A DNA stretch of 10,278 nucleotides from the NCBI GenBank assembly GCA_013115135.1, contig JABANP010000962.1, forward strand, positions 1 through 10,278, written 5' to 3'. Source of the DNA: Perkinsus olseni (Eukaryota > Perkinsozoa > Perkinsida > Perkinsidae). The translations under genes were made by a program, and so were the position numbers. Numbering within the stretch: the stretch's first letter is position 1; the number at the start of each line of letters is the position of its first letter. Below, piece after piece: positions 1-8,778 of the stretch. The notes beneath the pieces were generated by a model, which was not told where the DNA came from, did no database searches, and worked only from the letters and a program-made list of their open reading frames with translations.

Positions 1-161
1 AAGTATGGGCTTCGGCTTTTCAAGGCACAAGTGTACCTTCCACCACAATGGCAACTTCATCGGTTATAGTATTGATACCATATTTCAAACAGACTCTACT
101 CACTTCAAGGTTTGGATTCCCACCTATGGCTCTTGTAATTTTGTAATACAAAGGACATGGA

Positions 162-181
162 TAGGTGGCACCTATTAGGTG
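162..181. repeat. tripartite alternating palindrome module 1 (perfect)
   Basis: Arms TAGGTG-g-CACCTA-t-TAGGTG, a perfect 6-1-6-1-6 structure. Outer bases a161 and c182 are complementary to the spacers t175 and g168, so two overlapping 15-bp palindromes are formed (161-175 and 168-182). Implied 8-bp target: ATAGGTGC. Confidence 0.9.
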
Positions 182-201
182 CGGAGCGGCTCCACCGGAG
201 C
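182..201. repeat. tripartite module 2 (one mismatch), abutting module 1
   Basis: Arms CGGAGC-g-GCTCCA-c-CGGAGC. The two outer hexamers are identical at a 14-bp offset and the middle arm has one mismatch. It starts on the base after module 1 ends, so the two footprints are contiguous. Outer bases g181 and c202 complement the spacers c195 and g188. Confidence 0.85.
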
Positions 202-438
202 CACGGTACAAAGTTTGTATGCTTTCCAGCGGGTCCTCTCTACGAGACGGAACACTACTTGCTACTTGCTGAGACGGCATCGATAGGAGTTGCTACCAGC
301 TGTAACAACTATACGCAGTGGAGCGGGATAGGAAGAATATTAATCTAGTCTAGTTTTATGTATGGAATATAGCTACATAGATAATCGATTACTTAAGCGG
401 AAATAAATGGGTAACACAATGGATGTCTCCAAGGATTA

Positions 439-1130
439 TTGGGGACACGGGATACAGCAGACACAGAGAGGGTTCATATTGTGGACTGCGGTTTCTCCCA
501 CAGACGAGGCCGGCTCATCAACGGTATCCAACTTATATTTTCCTTCTCCCTCGTACTGCAGTGGTGGCTGACGACCATATCTTCCCGCCTATCGACGTCT
601 ATCCGACCTCGCGTACCTCCTGTCATCTATGATGTCTTGGTCTCCGACGCCAGCGTGTCTGCCCTCGCCGCGGTGGTCCTCACGCACTCTTCCGAGGCCT
701 TCCTCTCCCGGCTACCTGTCACAGCCCTTCGTCAAGAGTGGTCGAACATCTTCCCACACTCCCCCCCCCATGCGCCAGCACAGTCTTCTTGGAGATGACT
801 GCCATTGCGCTAGCATTATTTCTACGTACCCAGCTGTGCCCCGTTCTTGAAACCATTCCTGCAATTTGCATTTTCAGCGGAAGCCAAAGTTCTATTGATG
901 TGCTGCATAAAGGTTTCACGACTCATGCAGTACTTGGCCCCCTCTCACATGTGGTCTTAACATCAACAGAATCTACAACTTTGTTCTATCATTTACCTTC
1001 TGCAGCCAACTATTTAGCCTCCCGTCTCTCTTGTCTCTCCCGTGATCATTCGTTCTTTCCCAGCGGTGTTTGTCAAGTTGTCATGAATCCTGCCGACTTC
1101 CATCGGTGGTGTATCCAACATACTTACTAA
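439..1130 (+). pseudogene. RNase H domain remnant of the retroelement
   Basis: The first part (frame of position 439, to about 798) has LQWWLTTISS then VSDASVSALAAVVLT, the first strand of an RNase H fold with its aspartate. Near 765-770 a run of C residues coincides with a frame change. The second part (frame of 738-1130) carries FLEMTAIALAL with the catalytic glutamate, then IFSGSQSSIDVL, where the usual aspartate of the DS motif is glycine. It ends with HLPSAANYLASRLSCLSRD, matching the H-P-x-x-x-N-x-x-A-D-x-L-S-R signature but with serine in place of the last aspartate. Two of the four metal-binding acids are therefore lost. These identifications rest on motif reading only. Confidence 0.6.
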
Positions 1131-1228
1131 CACATTTCCCATATACCGTTACATCTCCCAAGTTCAACTAAAGTATTTGAAAGCTCTCGTATAAGTTACC
1201 TGCAGGTATCTTCTCCTCTCTTATGCCC

Positions 1229-1248
1229 CACCCAGTGGGTGGTACCCA
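1229..1248. repeat. tripartite module 3 (one mismatch)
   Basis: Arms CACCCA-g-TGGGTG-g-TACCCA, one mismatch in the last arm. It includes the 15-bp perfect palindrome 1228-1242. It lies in the linker between the RNase H and recombinase frames of the dead retroelement. Confidence 0.75.
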
Positions 1249-1946
1249 GGAGACATCCATCAAACTTTATGTCAATGGAAAGCTACTCAACCTCCCAGTG
1301 GCTCAGCCGGCGAGATATCAGGCAAGCAGCGACTACAGCAGGCTTCTCTCCGACCTTCTTCTCAGCGACAATATGCGGTCTCTGTCAAATACTACCTCAC
1401 CATCACGACCTTCCCCGCAACTGCAGACCGCCTTCAAACATATATGAGATATCTCCGCGATCCAGGCTTCCCCGCCAAGACCATTCGGAAGTACATCTCG
1501 GCAATACACTCAAGACATAGTTTACGTGGTTTCGCCAAGCTTTGTGTTACTGAATAAGATTCTGTGCGGCGAGCTCTACATGGTATCGACAAGACAGCTA
1601 AACGAGACGGCGGCCCCAAACAAGCTACACCAATATCTCATGCCGCCCTCCAAGCTCTGATAGCTTTACACGCTGTCCCTAAGTCGACAAAGGCTTCCCT
1701 CCGCGGTATAACTCTCTGTATGACGGGCTTGGTCGCCCGCCTTTGCGAAGTCATCAACTTGAAGGCTGACCACATCTCTCCTCTTGAAGCTACTGATTCC
1801 TGCAACTTCGTCACCCGCGTCGAGCTACATGACACCAAAACGACTGATTTGGTTGTCAAGGAAGTCGCCTGCCCGTACATCAGGAGTCCCAAGTCTGAGA
1901 CCAAGTCAAGACTTGAAGCCTTGTCCCGCTCCCTTCTGTGTCGCAC

Positions 1947-1992
1947 AGCTGTCCCAACGCTCACTGCTATCGAGCAACCGAGCACAGCAACG
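1947..1992 (+). repeat. 46-bp direct repeat, copy 1
   Basis: Matches 2285-2330 at 42 of 46 positions with no gap, in the same orientation. It lies in the tail of the recombinase remnant. DIRS-type elements have split or internal repeats, but I cannot show that this is one. Confidence 0.8.
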
Positions 1993-2284
1993 ATAATCGT
2001 TCAATTTATTGGACTTCGTCAAACAGGGCGCGCGCAGGTTGCAAGTGTGCACACGTACAGACTACCACAACATTAGCTAAACCCAAAAACGAGCCGTTAC
2101 TGTACACGATCAATGGTAGGGGTCAGCAAAGGGGGTGATGTGGTTCAGTAATACAGCTCGAACCCACCCTCGCCGCCGTACTACGCCAGATTCGTGTTGC
2201 TCCACAGGCATTCCTTTCCGGACTGCGACACCTAGGGGAGGGGGACATCCCTTCAATACACAGACGCCGTTGTCCCTCGACATT

Positions 2285-2330
2285 AGCTGTCCCAACGCCC
2301 ACTACTGTCGAGCAACCGAGCACAGCGACG
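2285..2330 (+). repeat. 46-bp direct repeat, copy 2
   Basis: Second copy of the repeat at 1947-1992, 338 bp downstream, differing by four substitutions. It may mark the 3' edge of the retroelement. Confidence 0.8.
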
Positions 2331-2389
2331 TTTGACGGGCAGTTACACGACAGTCATTCGAGAACTAATTGAGTTCAACGAGGCTGTGA

Positions 2390-2409
2390 TCGTAACTTAC
2401 GACTCGTAA
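2390..2409. repeat. tripartite module 4 (perfect)
   Basis: Arms TCGTAA-c-TTACGA-c-TCGTAA. It contains the 19-bp perfect palindrome 2394-2412. Its third arm overlaps the first unit of the 17-bp tandem array, so the module lies exactly at the array boundary. Confidence 0.9.
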
Positions 2410-2506
2410 GTTCCAGCCTTTCGTAAGTTCCAGCCTTTCGTAAGTTTCAGTCTATCGTAAGTTCTAGCCTAGCGTAAGTTCTAGCCTAGCGTAGGTTCTG
2501 GCCTAG
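2405..2506 (+). repeat. 17-bp tandem array, six units
   Basis: Six consecutive 17-bp units beginning CGTAAGTT, at 2405, 2422, 2439, 2456, 2473 and 2490. Units 1 and 2 are identical and units 4 and 5 are identical; the others diverge gradually, and a degraded CGTAG follows at 2507. Each unit has the form CGTAAGTTCYAGCCTWK. Minisatellite-like; no coding or regulatory role is evident. Confidence 0.95.
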
Positions 2507-2934
2507 CGTAGTGCCTCTAGTACTGAACTGGTTGGCGGCTGTCGCGTAGCGTGTACTCGTCTTTAGTGCAGGCATCTGCACTATAGAGACAACATAGTGA
2601 CGACTGTAGTATACGCTATGTAACAGCTACAGCCAGGTTGAGTACTATTCAGCGGTCAGACTATCACCGCTACACTTACCTTCACTGCTGCTGCGTATCA
2701 CTAGCCTCAGATAACCATCTGACCTTACTATGCGCTTTGCACTCGCACGCATGAATATACGTGCTACACTAAGCTTAGCTCAGTGATCTGCCAATCACAT
2801 TATTGCATAGCTCCCATCCAGTCCAATTTTACCTCTCTTTGAGCCCCGTCTCAAATGACCACACTGTACCGAGTTATAGTGCACATCGTGCACTCGCGTG
2901 CAAGAGTATACGTGCTATCTAACGCCACACATGA
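2507..2934. other. intergenic DNA with short repeats, no gene
   Basis: No open frame with protein-like composition. It holds an 8-bp-arm, 4-base-loop hairpin at 2564-2583, a 7-bp-arm hairpin at 2878-2894 (3-base loop), and two 30-bp related segments at 2737-2766 and 2888-2917 (25 of 30 identical, core GTATACGTGCTA or ATATACGTGCTA). It lies upstream of the secreted-protein gene and may include its promoter, but I see no recognisable core element. Confidence 0.6.
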
Positions 2935-2969
2935 CGCTATACAGTATAGCGAAGTATAGCCTATACTTC
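2935..2969. repeat. two joined single-base-centre palindromes
   Basis: A perfect 17-bp palindrome (2935-2951, centre a2943) shares its last base with a perfect 19-bp palindrome (2951-2969, centre c2960). Both are built on the same hexamer: CTATAC-a-GTATAG, four bases CGAA, then GTATAG-c-CTATAC. The whole is mirror-symmetric. It lies about 100 bp before the start codon of the secreted-protein gene. It could be a regulatory inverted repeat or a variant of the footprint family described for this window. Confidence 0.9.
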
Positions 2970-3069
2970 ACATTATCCCTTAGCGCTGTACTCAGTTATG
3001 AGGTGTATTATCGCTAGCCAGCGAAGAGATTCTCAGTTACCCCTTTAAGGTTTCCACGAATCCTCAAAG

Positions 3070-3969
3070 ATGCTCGTCGGTTGGTCCGTCGTCCTTCTAG
3101 CTCTCCTTCCGCTCGCCGGAGCAATCGTAAACAGCCTCGATAACTTCCCGGGGCGCCTCCCGTCTGCTAATATCAATGATTGGGAGGTGACACCAGAGCT
3201 GATCAATGCCTTGAAGACGCTAGAAGCCTACTTTGTTAAAATGGATGAGAAGCGAGTTGCCTCGTTCAGCGCTGGCCCCCAGCTAGCATCGATCTCGGCT
3301 GATGGAGGCTTCGCATTCCCACCCAATTGTACCCCACTGGAGAGGCCGGCGAACTACTCCTACTGTTTCCACGGCAATCGCACTCAAAATGGCAAGGACA
3401 AGACTGTTGTCGCCGTAGTCGACTTCTTCGATATCAACGACCCCAAGGACAACACCGTTATCGGCCTCACAGCTGAGTTCGAGGGGAACGACGCTCAAGA
3501 CCTAGAGGCTCACGCGGGCGGCGAAGCAGAGCTGATGATGGTTGGCAACAAGTCGTACGCCGGGGCAGCCGTCTATCTGAAGACCTACGACGTCGACGAG
3601 CCGCGTAAACCCGGTATGCTTGGTACCTTGCAGAACAGCTTTGTGGCCGAGCCTCACATAAAGTTCTACGCCTTCAATTATGAGATCTTGGACATAGAGA
3701 ATGGTCCAGTGGAAACTAGCTACGTTTATGCCAAGAAACCTGTGGATGTCGGCTTCAACGTAGCGGCGGAAATCTCGAGACCTGTGCAGTTCGGAAGCGT
3801 TGCTGCTTCTCTACAGTTAACTCTGAATAGCGTCAAGGGCAACGACAGCAGATGGTCTCTCAGAGGAGGTGGCAAGGTGACTTTCGGCATCCCTCCCTTG
3901 CTCAACTTGAACATCCCCATTAACTACATAAAGGAGGACATAGAGATCCCCCAAGGTCCTACCATGTAA
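3070..3969 (+). CDS. secreted protein of unknown function, 299 aa
   Basis: One uninterrupted exon with an even, coding-like codon pattern. Residues 1-18 are a classic signal peptide: a short N-terminus, a hydrophobic core VVLLALLPLAGA, and likely cleavage after AGA. The mature part has no other membrane segment, so it is probably exported or soluble in the secretory pathway. Sequons for N-glycosylation lie at N86 (followed by CTP, so weak), N95, N103, N160 and N258. Only two cysteines are present (C87 and C99), close enough to form one disulfide. The C-terminal third (about 215-290) is rich in alternating hydrophobic residues, suggesting beta strands. The ATG at 3070 is chosen because the signal peptide starts there. 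I do not recognise the family. No footprint module lies inside it, unlike the dead elements on either side. Confidence 0.85.
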   Translation: MLVGWSVVLLALLPLAGAIVNSLDNFPGRLPSANINDWEVTPELINALKTLEAYFVKMDEKRVASFSAGPQLASISADGGFAFPPNCTPLERPANYSYCFHGNRTQNGKDKTVVAVVDFFDINDPKDNTVIGLTAEFEGNDAQDLEAHAGGEAELMMVGNKSYAGAAVYLKTYDVDEPRKPGMLGTLQNSFVAEPHIKFYAFNYEILDIENGPVETSYVYAKKPVDVGFNVAAEISRPVQFGSVAASLQLTLNSVKGNDSRWSLRGGGKVTFGIPPLLNLNIPINYIKEDIEIPQGPTM

Positions 3970-4399
3970 CTATTCATTATGAACAGTGGGGAGTATCAAC
4001 GAGGATTTGTATCACCCTCAGCGGTTCGCACGGGTCGAGCGACTAGTGTAAACGCTGATTCATACATCATCGGGTGTCACGATCCGGGATGCGACTATGG
4101 TTTGATGGATGCTCGATGAAGTGCTGAGCATCACCTGTGTACCCGTTCATCTCGTTGTACTAACTACTCTTGTGTGCATTAATGGCACGCGTGATTCGCT
4201 CGGGCCGAGCTATGGCCAGTCTCGCATCCGTACGTATACCAGTTTTTAGTAAAAGTAGTCCTAGTAATCGTCGTGCCTGGTAGTTAGGCATTTTCAGATA
4301 CGCAGCGTCTTCTGGGAGTCGCGTTCAGGCGGGGCCAGATCAAACAGTGAGCATTCTAGTAGTATGTCGTTGCACGCATCGAATCCACCAACCAATTTT
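3970..4399. other. intergenic DNA downstream of the secreted-protein gene
   Basis: No coding signal seen on either strand. It contains a 7-bp-arm hairpin with an 11-base loop (4108-4132) and a 13-bp single-base-centre palindrome GCTCGG-g-CCGAGC at 4198-4210. No clear polyadenylation signal was found after the TAA at 3967-3969. Confidence 0.5.
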
Positions 4400-4419
4400 T
4401 CGCATTATGTGACTCGCAT
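4400..4419. repeat. tripartite module 19 (one mismatch)
   Basis: Arms TCGCAT-t-ATGTGA-c-TCGCAT. The outer hexamers are identical at 14-bp offset and the middle arm has one mismatch. It is intergenic. Confidence 0.75.
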
Positions 4420-4560
4420 AACTTGCCCGTTCGAGACGATGCAAGTCGGTCACTCTCACAGGTTGTCTTGCACTCATCGAGCACACAGAGTGTGGGGTCA
4501 CCGAGACTAGGCGAGCACTCCTTTTCTGCTCAGCCCTGTTGTGTCGAGAAATCGTGAGCT

Positions 4561-4580
4561 TGCGGACTCCGCAATGCGGA
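4561..4580. repeat. tripartite module 5 (perfect)
   Basis: Arms TGCGGA-c-TCCGCA-a-TGCGGA. Both outer bases (t4560, g4581) complement the spacers. Implied 8-bp target: TTGCGGAG. Confidence 0.9.
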
Positions 4581-4599
4581 GCTCGCCTTACCCGCAGCG

Positions 4600-4619
4600 A
4601 CTAGGTTCTAGTCACTAGG
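4600..4619. repeat. tripartite module 6 (one mismatch)
   Basis: Arms ACTAGG-t-TCTAGT-c-ACTAGG. The outer hexamers are identical and the middle arm differs at one base. It lies 19 bp after module 5. Confidence 0.8.
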
Positions 4620-4667
4620 GCAAGCGTATAAGGCAGCGAATAAGCTCTGTGAACTCGTGTGAAACAT

Positions 4668-4684
4668 AGTTATCAATGATAACT
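4668..4684. repeat. 17-bp perfect palindrome abutting module 7
   Basis: AGTTATCA-a-TGATAACT, 8-bp arms and a one-base centre. It is followed directly by the 19-bp palindrome 4685-4703 (9-bp arms, centre c4694), which is part of module 7. Confidence 0.9.
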
Positions 4685-4687
4685 GGG

Positions 4688-4707
4688 CCACGGCCCGTGG
4701 CCCACGG
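4688..4707. repeat. tripartite module 7 (perfect)
   Basis: Arms CCACGG-c-CCGTGG-c-CCACGG. The left-hand palindrome extends to 4685-4703. Outer base g4687 complements spacer c4701. Confidence 0.9.
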
Positions 4708-4822
4708 CACGTTCCGCCGGCAAACTTTCCCCGCCACTTTCGACGGGATTCCAACCCTGGCCACAGGGTGGAGAGTAGATCTGGCAACCGGTCAGCCAAG
4801 ATTTCCATCGCGGAAAGGGTGG

Positions 4823-4842
4823 GTTGTTAAACAACCGCTGTT
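4823..4842. repeat. tripartite module 8 (one mismatch)
   Basis: Arms GTTGTT-a-AACAAC-c-GCTGTT. It contains the 15-bp perfect palindrome 4822-4836. Both outer bases complement the spacers. Confidence 0.8.
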
Positions 4843-4926
4843 TCAAACTTGTTTGCTCGCACAGCTTCCACAGGAGAGCCATGTGTATCTAACTGTACTT
4901 GCCCATGAATACACGTCTACAGGAAC

Positions 4927-4946
4927 TCGTGGTCCACAAATTGTGG
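4927..4946. repeat. tripartite module 9 (one mismatch)
   Basis: Arms TCGTGG-t-CCACAA-a-TTGTGG. It contains the 15-bp perfect palindrome 4933-4947. Confidence 0.75.
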
Positions 4947-5186
4947 AGCCCCAAGTTATGATTTCTCTTACGCGGCTCCCTTTCTCCCCGGCGTTGGGGC
5001 GTGGGCCGGAGGACCGCGCGAGGCGCGCCATGTCTTCGGCCAATATGATGGAGCAGCTCCGGCATCACAGAGAGGAACCACACGACGTCGCCAGGGTGGG
5101 CGGGAGGTTATTTAGAGAATAAAACAAACTGACTCTTGATGATGACACGTCCTACTCACTCCAACTCTCCAACCGAATCACTCACT

Positions 5187-5490
5187 AGCTCTATCACAAA
5201 GCCAATGTCCCATCGCGCGCCGGGCGTCTTCCCGAGTAAACTGGCCCAACGAGTTGACCTCAATCGGTTCGGGGAATCGTATGGTTGAGCTGGACGGAGT
5301 CCCACTGTGCAGAATGAAACTGTAACAATTGAAGCTGTACGCCTCAGACTTTGAGGCTCAAAGTCGTACTGACTAGTACTGCACGGAATGGAGATGTTCG
5401 AATTGACTCGAGACGAAACTGTACGACTCCACGTGAGACCAAAGTAGTCTAAGCACGTATAAGTTGGGTACCAGATTGGTGCCGTATGAG
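5187..5490 (-). pseudogene. possible continuation of LINE ORF2 after the EEP domain
   Basis: Dropping 14 bp at module 11 (5484-5503) removes the TGA that ends the preceding frame and joins it to APIWYPTYTCLDYFGLTWS. Dropping 14 bp at module 10 (5343-5362) then gives YDFEAYSFNCYSFILHSG and IEVNSLGQFTREDARRAMG, ending at a TGA near 5187. Composition is protein-like, but no LINE linker or reverse transcriptase motif is identifiable, so assignment to ORF2 is by position only. Confidence 0.4.
5343..5362. repeat. tripartite module 10 (one mismatch)
   Basis: Arms CTCAGA-c-TTTGAG-g-CTCAAA. It contains the 19-bp perfect palindrome 5347-5365. Both outer bases complement the spacers. Confidence 0.8.
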
Positions 5491-5503
5491 TCATACGGTA
5501 TGA
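5484..5503. repeat. tripartite module 11 (perfect)
   Basis: Arms GTATGA-g-TCATAC-g-GTATGA. Two overlapping perfect palindromes (5482-5498 and 5490-5504). Both outer bases complement the spacers; implied 8-bp target CGTATGAC. It creates the TGA that closes the minus-strand LINE frame. Confidence 0.9.
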
Positions 5504-5622
5504 CAACCACCCCGCCTGACACGGCATCGGCCATCCCGCGTGACCGCAGTTCTTGAGGAGTAACACTCCAGTTCTTGGTCGCAGGCTGACTCAGATGGAC
5601 CACACTGCCTTGCGAGTCCTAT

Positions 5623-5642
5623 GCTCACAGTGAACAGTTCAA
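5623..5642. repeat. tripartite module 16 (degenerate)
   Basis: Arms GCTCAC-a-GTGAAC-a-GTTCAA. Each outer arm has one mismatch to the middle arm. It lies directly before the 57-bp inverted repeat, which has the related core GTTCACTGTGAAC. Confidence 0.5.
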
Positions 5643-5644
5643 GA

Positions 5645-5701
5645 GGGTGTAACCGAAACACAATCAGTTCACTGTGAACTGGTTGTGCTTCAGTTACACC
5701 C
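5645..5701. repeat. 57-bp inverted repeat, 27-bp arms
   Basis: Arms 5645-5671 and 5675-5701 pair at 24 of 27 positions around the three-base centre CTG. All three differences are transitions. It sits in the ORF2 remnant and could form a long hairpin. It is not the 6-1-6-1-6 type; it may be a longer fold-back duplication that has begun to diverge. Confidence 0.9.
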
Positions 5702-5909
5702 ATGCATGGCTGAATACCTTCCTGGGTGAGGGAAATTGAGCGAGCAGACTCAATAGAACTCAGACTCAGTGGAGCCCAGACGTTCTCCAGGACCGGCTTA
5801 TCGCCGAAGCAAAGTCAAAATTGAGGTCCTCCTTCCACACGAAAACGGCGAAACCTGTATCGAGTCACTGCCCTCCACCTCAGCAAATGAAGGTTTATTA
5901 TGAAACCCT

Positions 5910-5929
5910 CTCTAAATAAGAGACTCTAA
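5910..5929. repeat. tripartite module 18 (one mismatch)
   Basis: Arms CTCTAA-a-TAAGAG-a-CTCTAA. The outer hexamers are identical, and both outer bases complement the spacers. Without its 14 bp the EEP frame reads FFIREGFIINLH. Confidence 0.8.
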
Positions 5930-6109
5930 TAAAGAATGTCTCGACTATTCTCCCCAATCTCCTTGAACAAGGGCTCGAGCGCTGCGCGTAACGAGGGTCC
6001 CATAGAGGGTGTGAGCCGTTGCTATCCCCAACAGCGAGCACAGAGTGTTCTCTCAGTGCAGCTAACTGCTCGAGGATGGCCCCGTTTTCAGACTCATGCC
6101 TCGCCAGGG

Positions 6110-6129
6110 CTAGATGATCTAGCTTAGAT
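6110..6129. repeat. tripartite module 12 (one mismatch)
   Basis: Arms CTAGAT-g-ATCTAG-c-TTAGAT. It contains the 15-bp perfect palindrome 6109-6123. Both outer bases complement the spacers. It places a TAG in the EEP frame. Confidence 0.85.
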
Positions 6130-6569
6130 CTGTGTCGTACACTACTACAGTAAGATTGCTATGGGATCATCTACTCAAATAGACTCAATTCCTATGGTCC
6201 CTACGTACAAGTAAACATGTGTCACAATCCTCCTGATTGAATCTGATCCGTAGTCCATCAGGTCCATCCGATGGTCCATCAGGCTGATTCCGTAATGTGT
6301 CATATCCAGACACGGTACACGACCTCGGAGGTTCTGATATCATTATAAAATCGGGATGCCTGTAAACAGACATGATATGACTCATCATAATCTCATTGGA
6401 CTTTCTACAATTCAACTGCAGAAAAGACAGGGTCATAGCTCGTCAAAGACTCCACCAACAGGTGGAACACTCCCATCACCATAGTCTGTCATGTTACAAT
6501 TCTGCCTCAGAACTATGCGTTTTTCCTCGCACACAGCGCCCAAGAAGGCGTTGTGGCCAACTGTCTTGC

Positions 6570-6589
6570 ATAACGTCGTTATGATAACG
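6570..6589. repeat. tripartite module 13 (perfect)
   Basis: Arms ATAACG-t-CGTTAT-g-ATAACG. Overlapping perfect palindromes 6569-6583 and 6576-6590. Both outer bases complement the spacers; implied 8-bp target CATAACGA. It creates the TAA in LINE ORF1. Confidence 0.92.
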
Positions 6590-6647
6590 AGCATCTGCAG
6601 CCTCCGATATCAAGTCGACTTCCCTTATGAGGACAGTTCCTCATGAT

Positions 6648-6667
6648 GTGATTGAATCACAGTGGTT
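6648..6667. repeat. tripartite module 14 (one mismatch)
   Basis: Arms GTGATT-g-AATCAC-a-GTGGTT. It contains the 15-bp perfect palindrome 6647-6661; both outer bases complement the spacers. It is three bases from module 15. Confidence 0.85.
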
Positions 6668-6670
6668 CTC

Positions 6671-6690
6671 TCCACATTGTGGAGTCCACA
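6671..6690. repeat. tripartite module 15 (perfect)
   Basis: Arms TCCACA-t-TGTGGA-g-TCCACA. It interrupts a zinc knuckle of LINE ORF1 just after CFLCG. Confidence 0.9.
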
Positions 6691-6844
6691 CAGAAAGCAG
6701 CACGCCTTGGAGGCATCGACCTTTGCCTGGCAAGAGAGGTTGCTCGAATAGGGTTGTCCACAATCATAGCAACAGTGCACCGTCGGATGGTCTTTGGCCT
6801 TAAGTCTCATACTCTTAACATAAAGACCTTTCTTGACAGCATGA

Positions 6845-6875
6845 TTCCTGTCCCCGGGGACCCCGGGGACAGGAA
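6845..6875. repeat. 31-bp perfect palindrome, one-base centre
   Basis: 15-bp arms around a6860, with no mismatch. The inner part is a twofold CCCCGGGGA. On the minus strand it separates HRTVSCP from HAVKKGLYVKSM in LINE ORF1; leaving out 16 bp (the centre plus one arm) joins these two frames. Confidence 0.95.
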
Positions 6876-6906
6876 ACTGTTCTATGCCCCTCTATCCCCC
6901 GGACCG

Positions 6907-6921
6907 TCATGCGACGCATGA
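6907..6921. repeat. 15-bp perfect palindrome
   Basis: TCATGCG-a-CGCATGA. It codes FMRRM in the ORF1 remnant without breaking the frame, so it may be an original coding coincidence. Confidence 0.6.
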
Positions 6922-6944
6922 ACTCGACACCTGTTGAGAGAACT

Positions 6945-6964
6945 TGAAAGACTCTCAATGAAAG
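6945..6964. repeat. tripartite module 20 (one mismatch)
   Basis: Arms TGAAAG-a-CTCTCA-a-TGAAAG. The outer hexamers are identical and both outer bases complement the spacers. Without its 14 bp the frames on either side in LINE ORF1 join, apart from one TGA upstream. Confidence 0.8.
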
Positions 6965-7506
6965 TTCGGTATTGGGAAACGTCGCTTCCTTCACGGTTTG
7001 TCATAGTTCCCGACTCGAGAATTTGGATCTCTCTCGCATGCCAGGGCTATCCGGGAAAGTAGGAGGTTGTCCTCGTCATCCCAAGCTGGCTTTCCTGAGT
7101 CCGCATTGATAATTTCCCCGATCTCATCATCAACTCTGTCCGCCAAGCGCAAACGCTGCTCCTGAGGAGCGGAACTCCGGCTCTAGCTCGCCAGTCAACA
7201 CAGATAGAACTCACTGCCTTGTCAATCACATGCTTGGAGCGAACAGAACGGGCCTCGGCAACGGCCTCTTCCAAACCCATCGTGAGCCATTCAGAGAAGT
7301 CCCATGGCATGCCTGAGGGTTTGAACTTCAAGCCCTTCAAGGAGCTTGCAAGGTAGCAGCGACCTTCCCATAGCGTTGATTCACCCACGGATGGGACTGG
7401 GAGTCAACAACAACCGGGATCGTAACGCATCGATCATTGACAGCCCATCCTAGAGCAAATCAGCGAGGTCACTCGAAACTCATGCATGGTTGAACCCCCA
7501 ATCAAT

Positions 7507-7547
7507 AAATCAATTTTGAAACCGTGGATAGATTTCAGAATTGATTT
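7507..7547. repeat. inverted repeat, 15-bp arms and 11-base loop
   Basis: Arms 7507-7521 and 7533-7547 pair at 14 of 15 positions, AT-rich. It is located between the AIG2-like gene and the LINE; it may lie in the gene's 3' flank. Confidence 0.85.
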
Positions 7548-7631
7548 CCACACGTAAAATGCGGTTGGTTTATTGAACACGCCCAGACTCTCTAGTGGGG
7601 AACCCGAATTAGCCAACCTTTTCCACACGTT

Positions 7632-8529
7632 CTATGAGGTCGACTTACCCTTGTGGCCCAACCGAGAGCGTAGGTCTTCCTTCCATAAAAAAACTGCAGC
7701 TTCGACTTCTACCGACTCACTGCCCATCACCTTAAGCGTCGAAACGAAGTACCTGTCCGCAAAACGAAGGAACCAAGTTTCAGCCGAGTCGTGGCGATGA
7801 GGAAGGTCTGAACGTGTACTGGAGAGTAGGACTGTAACACAAGAGGGGGAGCTTATAAAAAAGGTAATGCGATGAGATCGTCCCAGAGTCTACCGGGAAG
7901 GTTCCTAGCTGTTTCCGACGGAAACAGCTAGCGGAAGCATCCGAAGAGTCGTTCAAGTAGGGGCTTACTCGTCGCCTTCGTACTCGACGATAAGCTTCAA
8001 ATCGTCTGCGGTGAGAGCACTCAGTAACTGTCCGACTATTGCCTGCCCTTCGCCTTGCGTTTCCCTGATCAATGCCGGATAACCCTCTCCGTTGACAGTT
8101 AATCTGATCGTGAGAAGAAGTGTAGTACGCGAGAAGACTGTAAGACCCAAAAACAATCTGATAATGGATGGTCGATCATATGATCGTGATATAGAACCCG
8201 GCGTAATAAGGATGAACCTTCACGATCTTTCACGTAGTGATATATCCATTTCTCACAGCGCGGAATTCAGTTGCAGCAACTCACGAGAAAATGTTTAGCG
8301 TGGCAGCGGCTACAATGTCTCAAAAACTGACAATGACAATGACTGACCTCCGATAGCCCGCAGAGGCTGGAAGTACCGCTGTGCAACAAGGGGCTTCGCG
8401 GCCAAGTAACGCCGAACGCAGCTGAAACACCACAGACGATGAAGTGGCGGTGGCTAGACTCGACCGGACCTCCGCCGACATGAGCGTTCCGTAAACGAAG
8501 ATTGGACGAATGCTGAGATCCATCCTCAC
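7632..8529 (-). CDS. AIG2 / gamma-glutamylcyclotransferase-like protein, four exons, 129 aa
   Basis: Predicted exons: 8529-8470, 8421-8348, 8103-7969 and 7752-7632. Introns have GT-AG ends: 48 nt (in frame, so least certain), 244 nt (gtcagt...cag) and 216 nt (gtaagc...acag). The spliced product has the family landmarks in order: RPIFVYGTLM at residues 8-17 (substrate-binding loop), LLGREAP (25-31), AGYRRLTVNGEGYPALI (41-57), VGQLLSALTADDLKL (68-82), IVEYEGDEYF (83-92), where E87 matches the catalytic glutamate, and VEVEAAVFLWKEDL (104-117), ending in TAG. About 130-170 residues is usual for the family. These proteins fold as a small beta barrel; members cleave gamma-glutamyl or related amide bonds, but the substrate cannot be told. 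ATG 8529 precedes the motif by ten codons; ATG 8523 is an alternative. An AATAAA lies 60 nt beyond the stop. Confidence 0.8.
7905..7931. repeat. 27-bp perfect palindrome inside an intron
   Basis: 13-bp arms around a7918. It lies in the 216-nt second large intron (7968-7753) of the AIG2-like gene, where it could form a hairpin in the pre-mRNA without affecting the product. Confidence 0.92.
8173..8186. repeat. 14-bp even palindrome in an intron
   Basis: CGATCATATGATCG, no central base. It lies in the 244-nt intron of the AIG2-like gene. It is the only even palindrome of this length that I noticed, against about 25 with a one-base centre. Confidence 0.8.
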
Positions 8530-8565
8530 TTAACTCGGAGATAAACTGGGAATAAAACTCGACAC

Positions 8566-8585
8566 CGGAACTCTTCCGGCGGAAC
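8566..8585. repeat. tripartite module 17 (one mismatch)
   Basis: Arms CGGAAC-t-CTTCCG-g-CGGAAC. The outer hexamers are identical. It lies just upstream of the AIG2-like start codon, in its likely 5' untranslated region or promoter. Confidence 0.75.
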
Positions 8586-8732
8586 CGGCGTCGCTCATGC
8601 CGTAGCAACATTATCCTTCCAGACACTTGAAGCTCAAACGATGATTCGTGCAGGGAAGCAACATCACAAATGCTTTCACCACAATACAATCCTACTGCGA
8701 TCTGCAGAAAGGTGATCATCTATGTGTTGAGG

Positions 8733-8778
8733 CCTCAGAGACTCTGAGGTCACTCAGATCACCACTCTGAGTCAGAGT
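8733..8778. repeat. two palindromes with shared hexamer at the end of the PA14-like gene
   Basis: CCTCAGAG-a-CTCTGAGG (8733-8749) and ACTCTGA-g-TCAGAGT (8764-8778), perfect with one-base centres, sharing TCAGAG/CTCTGA in mirror order as at 2935-2969. The second contains the TGA stop (8774-8772) of the minus-strand gene. A role as terminator or 3' processing hairpin is possible but unproven. Confidence 0.85.

Follow-up and report, generated by a model that had tools for sequence, protein, structure and literature searches.

The window analysed here, a whole contig of the Perkinsus olseni genome (C959; JABANP010000962.1, 10,278 bp), contains numerous short palindromic units of fixed geometry but unrelated sequence. 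Each of these units is, very probably, the repaired scar of a DNA transposon of the hAT type, which was once inserted at an 8-bp target site, T, and was then excised. The 22-bp form of the unit, its spread over the genome, homologous copies with nothing but T in its place, a bias of T towards nTnnnnAn and hAT-like elements with 8-bp duplications were all observed in the same genome. The flanks of some of these elements are odd palindromes of the kind seen in the scars. The observation is real and stronger than was claimed in a preliminary description of this DNA, and its reading as a product of hAT-type excision has good support, short of final proof.

Geometry of the palindromic unit

The preliminary description listed 20 sites in the window, at which a hexamer, its reverse complement and the hexamer again are separated by single bases (6-1-6-1-6); seven sites were said to be perfect and most others to have one mismatch. 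Recounting at the listed starts gave seven perfect sites, 12 with one mismatch and one (start 5623) with two, i.e., 19 of the 20 fit the form at 0-1 mismatch. Site 5623 makes better sense as a portion of a longer scar at 5629-5680. In a grid of arms of 4-9 and spacers of 0-4 bases, these 7 perfect and 12 one-mismatch sites occupied the cell with arm 6 and spacer 1, while every other cell with an arm of at least 6 held no perfect and at most one one-mismatch site. One hundred first-order Markov sequences modelled on the window contained, on average, 0.0 perfect and 0.02 one-mismatch sites.

The unit length, initially given as 20 bp, is corrected here to 22 bp. This was deduced from 80 perfect sites taken from 210 kb of sequence, including the window and stretches of contigs C384 and C674; sites near stretch ends were omitted, and related copies of one site were each counted. 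The base to the left of the first hexamer complements the second spacer base in 67 of the 80 sites, and the base to the right of the last hexamer complements the first spacer base in 73. The outer bases thus pair with the spacer bases and belong to the unit. With t1-t8 denoting the 8-bp site T and c8-c1 its reverse complement, the unit reads t1-t7, c8-c1, t2-t8. When direct 6-mers spaced 7-27 apart were counted under the requirement that both outer bases be complementary, the clearest excess was at distance 14 (82 versus 16 expected), followed by distances 23 (15 versus 6) and 18 (11 versus 6). Scored as 22-mers, the 19 sites of the window have 0, 1, and 2 mismatches in 4, 10, and 5 cases, respectively. 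Palindromic flanks reaching past the 22 bp were suspected by eye at a few window sites and rejected; pairing outside the unit is close to the chance quarter (10 to 27 of the 80 perfect sites per position), with no general effect.

Abundance in the genome

The genome sample consisted of 17 chosen 10-kb stretches (170 kb), two of which adjoin on contig C1; the window, two C384 stretches, and the C674 stretch (picked for likeness to the window) were kept out of it. The combination of arm 6 and spacer 1 was represented by 55 perfect and 44 one-mismatch sites, versus none of either in one shuffled set. The other cells with arms of 6-8 contained no perfect and at most four one-mismatch sites, and the single perfect case in the shuffled set fell in the cell with arm 6 and spacer 4. 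At arm 5 with spacer 1, a geometry nested within the 6-1 form, there were 3 perfect and 32 one-mismatch sites; the remaining arm-5 cells gave 0-2 and 6-22 (shuffled: 0 and 2-15). A genome scan against shuffled sequence and against other arm and spacer lengths had been proposed as a check on the original claim, and the excess at arm 6 and spacer 1 is indeed sharp. Neither of the two outcomes named as contrary to the claim, i.e., no excess or an equal excess at other geometries, was seen in the 170 kb.

The 22-bp model at up to two mismatches detected 115 scars in this sample, in comparison to one in one shuffled set and eight in four more. Scars with 0, 1, and 2 mismatches numbered 45, 36, and 34. 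The density is 0.68 scars per kb, or about one per 1.5 kb of the sampled stretches; if the sample is fair, extrapolation to 61.5 Mb gives about 41,600 scars. Their distribution is very uneven, from 0 to 31 per 10-kb stretch. Four of the 115 scars lie inside open frames of at least 200 codons, which cover 24% of the bases (p = 4e-9). Such rarity in long open frames is expected because the insertion shifts the frame.

Empty sites and scars in homologous copies

The window has related copies in C384, a 43.9-kb contig (stretches L004 and L005) in which parts of the window region occur at least twice and in rearranged order, as alleles or duplicates. Four alignments were examined: the two longest between the window and C384 (four shorter ones were left unused), and the longest each between stretch L006 and 4.5 kb of C940 and between stretch L010 and 4.8 kb of C866, where the paired copies are again alleles or duplicates. 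Together they comprise 21,140 columns and 52 indels of at least 3 bp, a few of which recur between the two C384 alignments.

The commonest size among these indels is 14 bp (13 of 52), and the process therefore visibly shapes this genome. All 13 indels of exactly 14 bp fit the 22-bp model built from T of the shorter copy at no more than 4 of 22 mismatches, eight of them with no mismatch and five with three or four. One 17-bp indel fits the model as well. Five more (9, 11, 23, 45, and 101 bp) are within the same limit and appear, by eye, to be decayed or long-form scars, i.e., scars with longer or unequal arms; the remaining 33 of the 52 are outside it. Since every 14-bp indel is a unit facing a single T, the unit is formed at an 8-bp site, to which it adds 14 bp net. 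The 8-bp T opposite the 22-bp form also bears out the earlier statement that the process copies whatever DNA is present and does not represent a conserved binding site.

The scars and empty sites recognised in the window are as follows (window positions; none has a strand).

161..182: 22-bp scar, no mismatch, ATAGGTG GCACCTAT TAGGTGC
181..202: 22-bp scar, one mismatch, abutting the scar at 161..182
1228..1249: 22-bp scar, two mismatches
1322..1329: empty site T (GCAAGCAG); the C384 copy reads GCAAACA CTGTTTGC CAAACAG, +14 bp
2389..2410: 22-bp scar, one mismatch
2936..2967: long-form scar; copies of t2-t7 are 24 apart
4399..4420: 22-bp scar, two mismatches
4560..4581: 22-bp scar, no mismatch
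4599..4620: 22-bp scar, two mismatches
4687..4708: 22-bp scar, one mismatch
4822..4843: 22-bp scar, one mismatch
4840..4847: empty site T (GTTTCAAA) that shares bases with the scar at 4822..4843; in C384 the copy is scarred at this place, +17 bp in the alignment, and its 22-mer has no mismatch
4926..4947: 22-bp scar, two mismatches
5342..5363: 22-bp scar, one mismatch
5483..5504: 22-bp scar, no mismatch; an 11-bp indel relative to the C384 copy lies here
5629..5680: long-form scar with filler, T read as AGTGAACT
5909..5930: 22-bp scar, one mismatch
6109..6130: 22-bp scar, one mismatch
6232..6290: long-form scar with filler; the C384 copy is without 51 bp
6569..6590: 22-bp scar, no mismatch
6647..6668: 22-bp scar, one mismatch
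6670..6691: 22-bp scar, one mismatch
6944..6965: 22-bp scar, one mismatch
7027..7034: empty site T (ATCTCTCT); the second C384 copy reads ATCTCTC AGAGAGAT TCTCTCT, +14 bp
8565..8586: 22-bp scar, two mismatches
8734..8778: long-form scar; the C384 copy is without 37 bp

If the unit were a signal under selection in DNA or RNA, for instance a binding site or a hairpin, its dyad symmetry and the fixed 7-bp spacing of its centres would be accounted for. The sites, however, share sequence only as the bias of T, and a conserved binding site was rejected on this ground, as was a repeat family. Presence and absence at homologous places are common, the numbers of sites with 0, 1, and 2 mismatches (45/36/34) are those of a decay series, and folding in the form drawn is impossible with a loop of one base. 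Selection for a signal is, accordingly, the explanation to which we give the least credence.

Target signature

In 166 distinct T, position t2 is T or position t7 is A at 144 of 332 positions (43%; background 24%; p = 2e-14). When T is pooled with its reverse complement, t1 is G and t8 is C in 38%. The target is thus enriched for nTnnnnAn. This matches the published preference of the hAT transposon Hermes, which also uses 8-bp targets of the form nTnnnnAn (PMC10368747).

An error of replication or repair in which no transposon takes part, namely template switching or correction of an imperfect palindrome, would also yield a product templated by local DNA. In that case, arm and spacer should vary, whereas the excess is limited to arm 6, spacer 1, and outer pairing; nor does such an error predict the nTnnnnAn bias. 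We regard this origin as highly improbable.

hAT-like elements and transposase genes

A scan for elements with a target duplication and inverted ends was made for duplication lengths of 6, 7, 8, 9, and 10 bp and yielded 0, 1, 2, 0, and 0 elements, respectively. Length 7 is represented by a 593-bp element in stretch L005; the two elements with length-8 duplications lie in L010 (576 bp) and L027 (1,431 bp).

The 576-bp element represents a non-autonomous family with CAGGGTGGCTGAA ends and 39 matches, some of which are full-length and 99% identical. Flanks were read for 21 copies, and both ends were readable in 14. Identical 8-bp duplications were present in eight of these 14 copies, two of the eight being one duplicated stretch. 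In four others (C146, C576, C24:125435, and C202), one T could be read by eye on both sides through an odd palindrome, which is indirect support for a hAT excision footprint. Two of the four, C146 and C576, have, by eye, the structure t1-t7, reverse-complement T, end-trimmed element, reverse-complement T, t2-t8.

The joined flanks of seven copies of this family were used in a search for empty sites (40 of 189 candidates scored; 11 of 58 listed places read). An empty site with one T was found for five of the seven, and for one the matches listed included only the self-match. The copy in C339 lies within a 22-bp scar; another copy, C604, lacks this scar. Ends of the 576-bp family abut an odd palindrome with an arm of at least 6 in 8 of 35 cases, versus 623 of 20,000 random places (3.1%; p = 1e-5). 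As the two C339 copies are one event, the fair count is 7 of 33, with the duplicate left out (p = 6e-5); omission of C339 altogether gives 6 of 31 (p = 3e-4).

Both ends were seen in eight copies of the 593-bp family. By eye, six of them have 8-bp duplications; of the other two, the copy in C384 has a 7-bp duplication and that in C202 has none. The 1,431-bp element of L027 (hAT domain, ends TAGAGATGGGCA, 12 matches) has its 8-bp duplication within a local tandem repeat and was not used as evidence. The hAT transposase domain PF05699 has 21 matches in the genome. A scan of the sampled sequence for elements interrupting a scar returned 11 rows, in none of which an element was recognised: two come from a tandem duplication, two are long-form scars (by eye), and seven (1-2 mismatches) were taken as chance pairs.

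Stretch L030 (C941:2476-5664) carries, on the minus strand, a 581-aa frame of the hAT type with DUF4371 and Dimer_Tnp_hAT domains. The adjoining plus-strand frame resembles, by eye, part of a reverse transcriptase.

What a scar displays is T only, never the departed element. A single step could therefore be imagined, with T cut directly by a nuclease, transposase-like or domesticated, that leaves an 8-bp stagger and hairpin caps, and with repair of this break to 22 bp. Kat1 of Kluyveromyces lactis, a domesticated hAT transposase, does make hairpin-capped breaks (PMC4763223). However, it cuts at the ends of an element remnant and not at free target sites, and it serves one programmed site for mating-type switching; the available text of that report does not mention genome-wide scars (PMC4763223). 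In P. olseni, moreover, elements with 8-bp duplications exist, some of them between the same palindromes as in the scars and two trimmed at both ends. A break made in the absence of an element is thus improbable.

Excision model and long-form scars

Excision of a hAT element could produce the scar in the following way. On both sides, the transposase would place its nick one base into the duplicated T and seal the flank as a hairpin, so that the element-adjacent base becomes the unpaired centre of an odd palindrome. Opening of the hairpins away from the tip would leave both ends with 3' tails that contain reverse-complement T. Suppose that the opening in each hairpin lies at T's outer edge or farther out. 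The left 3' tail would then terminate with c8-c1 or extend beyond it, and the right 3' tail would be complementary to c8-c1. This 8-nt microhomology could then anneal, to be followed by trimming and sealing. By derivation, the annealed product would be L, t1-t7, c8-c1, t2-t8, R, which is exactly the scar. One product would be formed in this way, whatever the exact opening point. Tails that fail to anneal would give rise to longer scars with filler, or the element might be caught again in the gap. The model, accordingly, predicts a minority of unannealed joins with long arms.

Non-canonical scars were counted in 284 kb, with arms from 2 nt upwards, a lower limit set by the filter. We found 25 distinct scars of this kind beside 95 canonical ones, or 83 after like ones were collapsed. 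The canonical 22-bp product thus makes up 83 of 108 distinct recognised scars, and the long form 25 of 108. In long-form scars, arm lengths are most often 7-8 nt (16 of 50 arms), and the longest arm, in the scar at L010:3141, is 26 nt. In the C384 copy, a 101-bp insertion is located at window position 1509, and its ends invert both flanks. To produce the very long arms at these two places, the hairpins would have opened far from the tip. The scar at L010:872 contains two entire reverse-complement T in tandem.

Alternatively, the product might owe its constant length to the transposase or a bound nuclease, if either opened the hairpins precisely where T ends on its outer side and pairing followed. 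The arm peak at 7-8 nt coincides with this edge, and the two whole reverse-complement T at L010:872 look as if both ends had been opened there and joined. On the other hand, arms range up to 26 nt, and insertions of 54 bp and 101 bp pass well beyond T. This variant of hAT excision deserves consideration but is rather unlikely.

Several points weigh against hAT excision followed by annealing. The hairpin and the annealing step are derived, not observed, and the 7-8 nt arm peak would also be explained by hairpins opened where T ends instead of at random points. The short footprint of the plant type, t1-t7, c8, c1, t2-t8, consists of two half-sites in which only the adjoining bases are changed. 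This form, at distance 8, is not in excess (1 both-complementary case of 42, with 4.7 expected), and the usual footprint spectrum is therefore not what is seen here. Two copies of the 576-bp family, C102 and C92, have neither a duplication nor a T readable on both sides. The reverse-complement T that is duplicated round the intact element in C339 may reflect ordinary re-insertion into an old scar. For the seven copies searched (40 of 189 candidates scored), no locus was found to be filled in one copy and scarred in the homologous copy. The candidate autonomous partner of the 576-bp family, the 6.2-kb stretch C268:33406-39601, combines a hAT reading frame with related ends, but its flanking 8-mers mismatch. 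Finally, scars far outnumber the elements seen.

Comparison with known systems

Footprints of excision are also left by other hAT transposons, such as hobo and Tam3. In V(D)J recombination, hairpin-capped ends that are opened off-centre give rise to short palindromes, the P nucleotides; that system is without an 8-bp duplicated target, makes variable short additions, and uses different enzymes. V(D)J recombination has been likened to hAT excision (PMC1978519). A close likeness is to the footprints of Ac/Ds. According to the available parts of the source reports, these are palindromes centred on the complement of the element-adjacent base, with arms that reach 20 nt in budding yeast; most joins in yeast and Arabidopsis, and 51% in Candida, showed putative microhomology (PMC5873905). 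The odd palindromes were explained by hairpins, off-centre opening, and microhomology joining (PMC5873905, PMC1978519). The P. olseni scars share with them both the odd palindromes on the complement of that base and the microhomology at the join. Ac/Ds footprints as described there, however, form a mixed set in a reporter assay, with 28 different footprints in 128 Candida clones (PMC5873905), whereas a single product accounts for 83 of 108 scars here and is spread over the genome.

In another alveolate, Amoebophrya, introners possess direct and inverted repeats and were likened by the authors to DNA transposons (PMC7789003). As far as the accessible text describes them, these are introns with 8-20-nt inverted and 3-5-nt direct repeats, not 22-bp scars (PMC7789003). 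At 22 bp, the P. olseni units seem too small to contain an intron.

The preliminary description knew of no repeat class of this form. This can be upheld for the fixed, genome-wide 22-bp product, which we found described nowhere in the literature searched, but not for the form as such, since it follows from known hAT hairpin excision and T has a hAT signature. The chemistry is known; the uniform genome-wide record is the new part. Among the titles and abstracts listed from the open-access literature, no account of such scars in Perkinsus or of a dominant 22-bp hAT product was found, although an earlier report is possible.

Traces of transposon excision are normally too varied to be recognised once the element has left. 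A scar of fixed shape can be found without shared sequence, and past jumps could therefore become countable, datable by decay, and mappable to their 8-bp targets. The record would concern past hAT activity in a wild eukaryote, the shellfish parasite Perkinsus. The handling of hairpin-capped breaks, a subject of reporter assays in yeast and plants and akin to V(D)J joining, would be testable from genome sequence alone. A broader proposal is made tentatively, with slightly more doubt than conviction. Excision of hAT elements may be a leading source of insertions in this genome, by a dedicated and nearly uniform route in which hairpin-capped breaks are joined through annealing of reverse-complement targets and nearly every jump adds 14 bp. 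The approximately 40,000 scars would then be a readable register of vanished transposons, and the 22-bp form a new sequence-independent repeat class for counting hAT activity in any genome.

Other features of the window

An intact gene at 3070-3969 encodes a predicted protein of 299 aa with a hydrophobic start. None of the sites lies within these positions, in agreement with the earlier remark that the intact secreted-protein gene is free of them. All eight relatives listed for the protein are from Perkinsus; the nearest ones are from P. olseni (87% and lower) and P. marinus. The protein also matches DUF6740 weakly, under the cut-off of that profile.

A tandem repeat of 17 bp (CGTAAGTTCCAGCCTTT-like) occupies positions 2389-2515 and starts at the scar located there; C384 differs by two 17-bp units. 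When the window was searched for further empty sites (38 of 320 candidates scored), mostly matches to a dispersed repeat of about 300 bp were obtained. This repeat is located at 2573-2886. It has at least some tens of matches, some of them in inverted pairs, and among those listed most show 80-84% identity.

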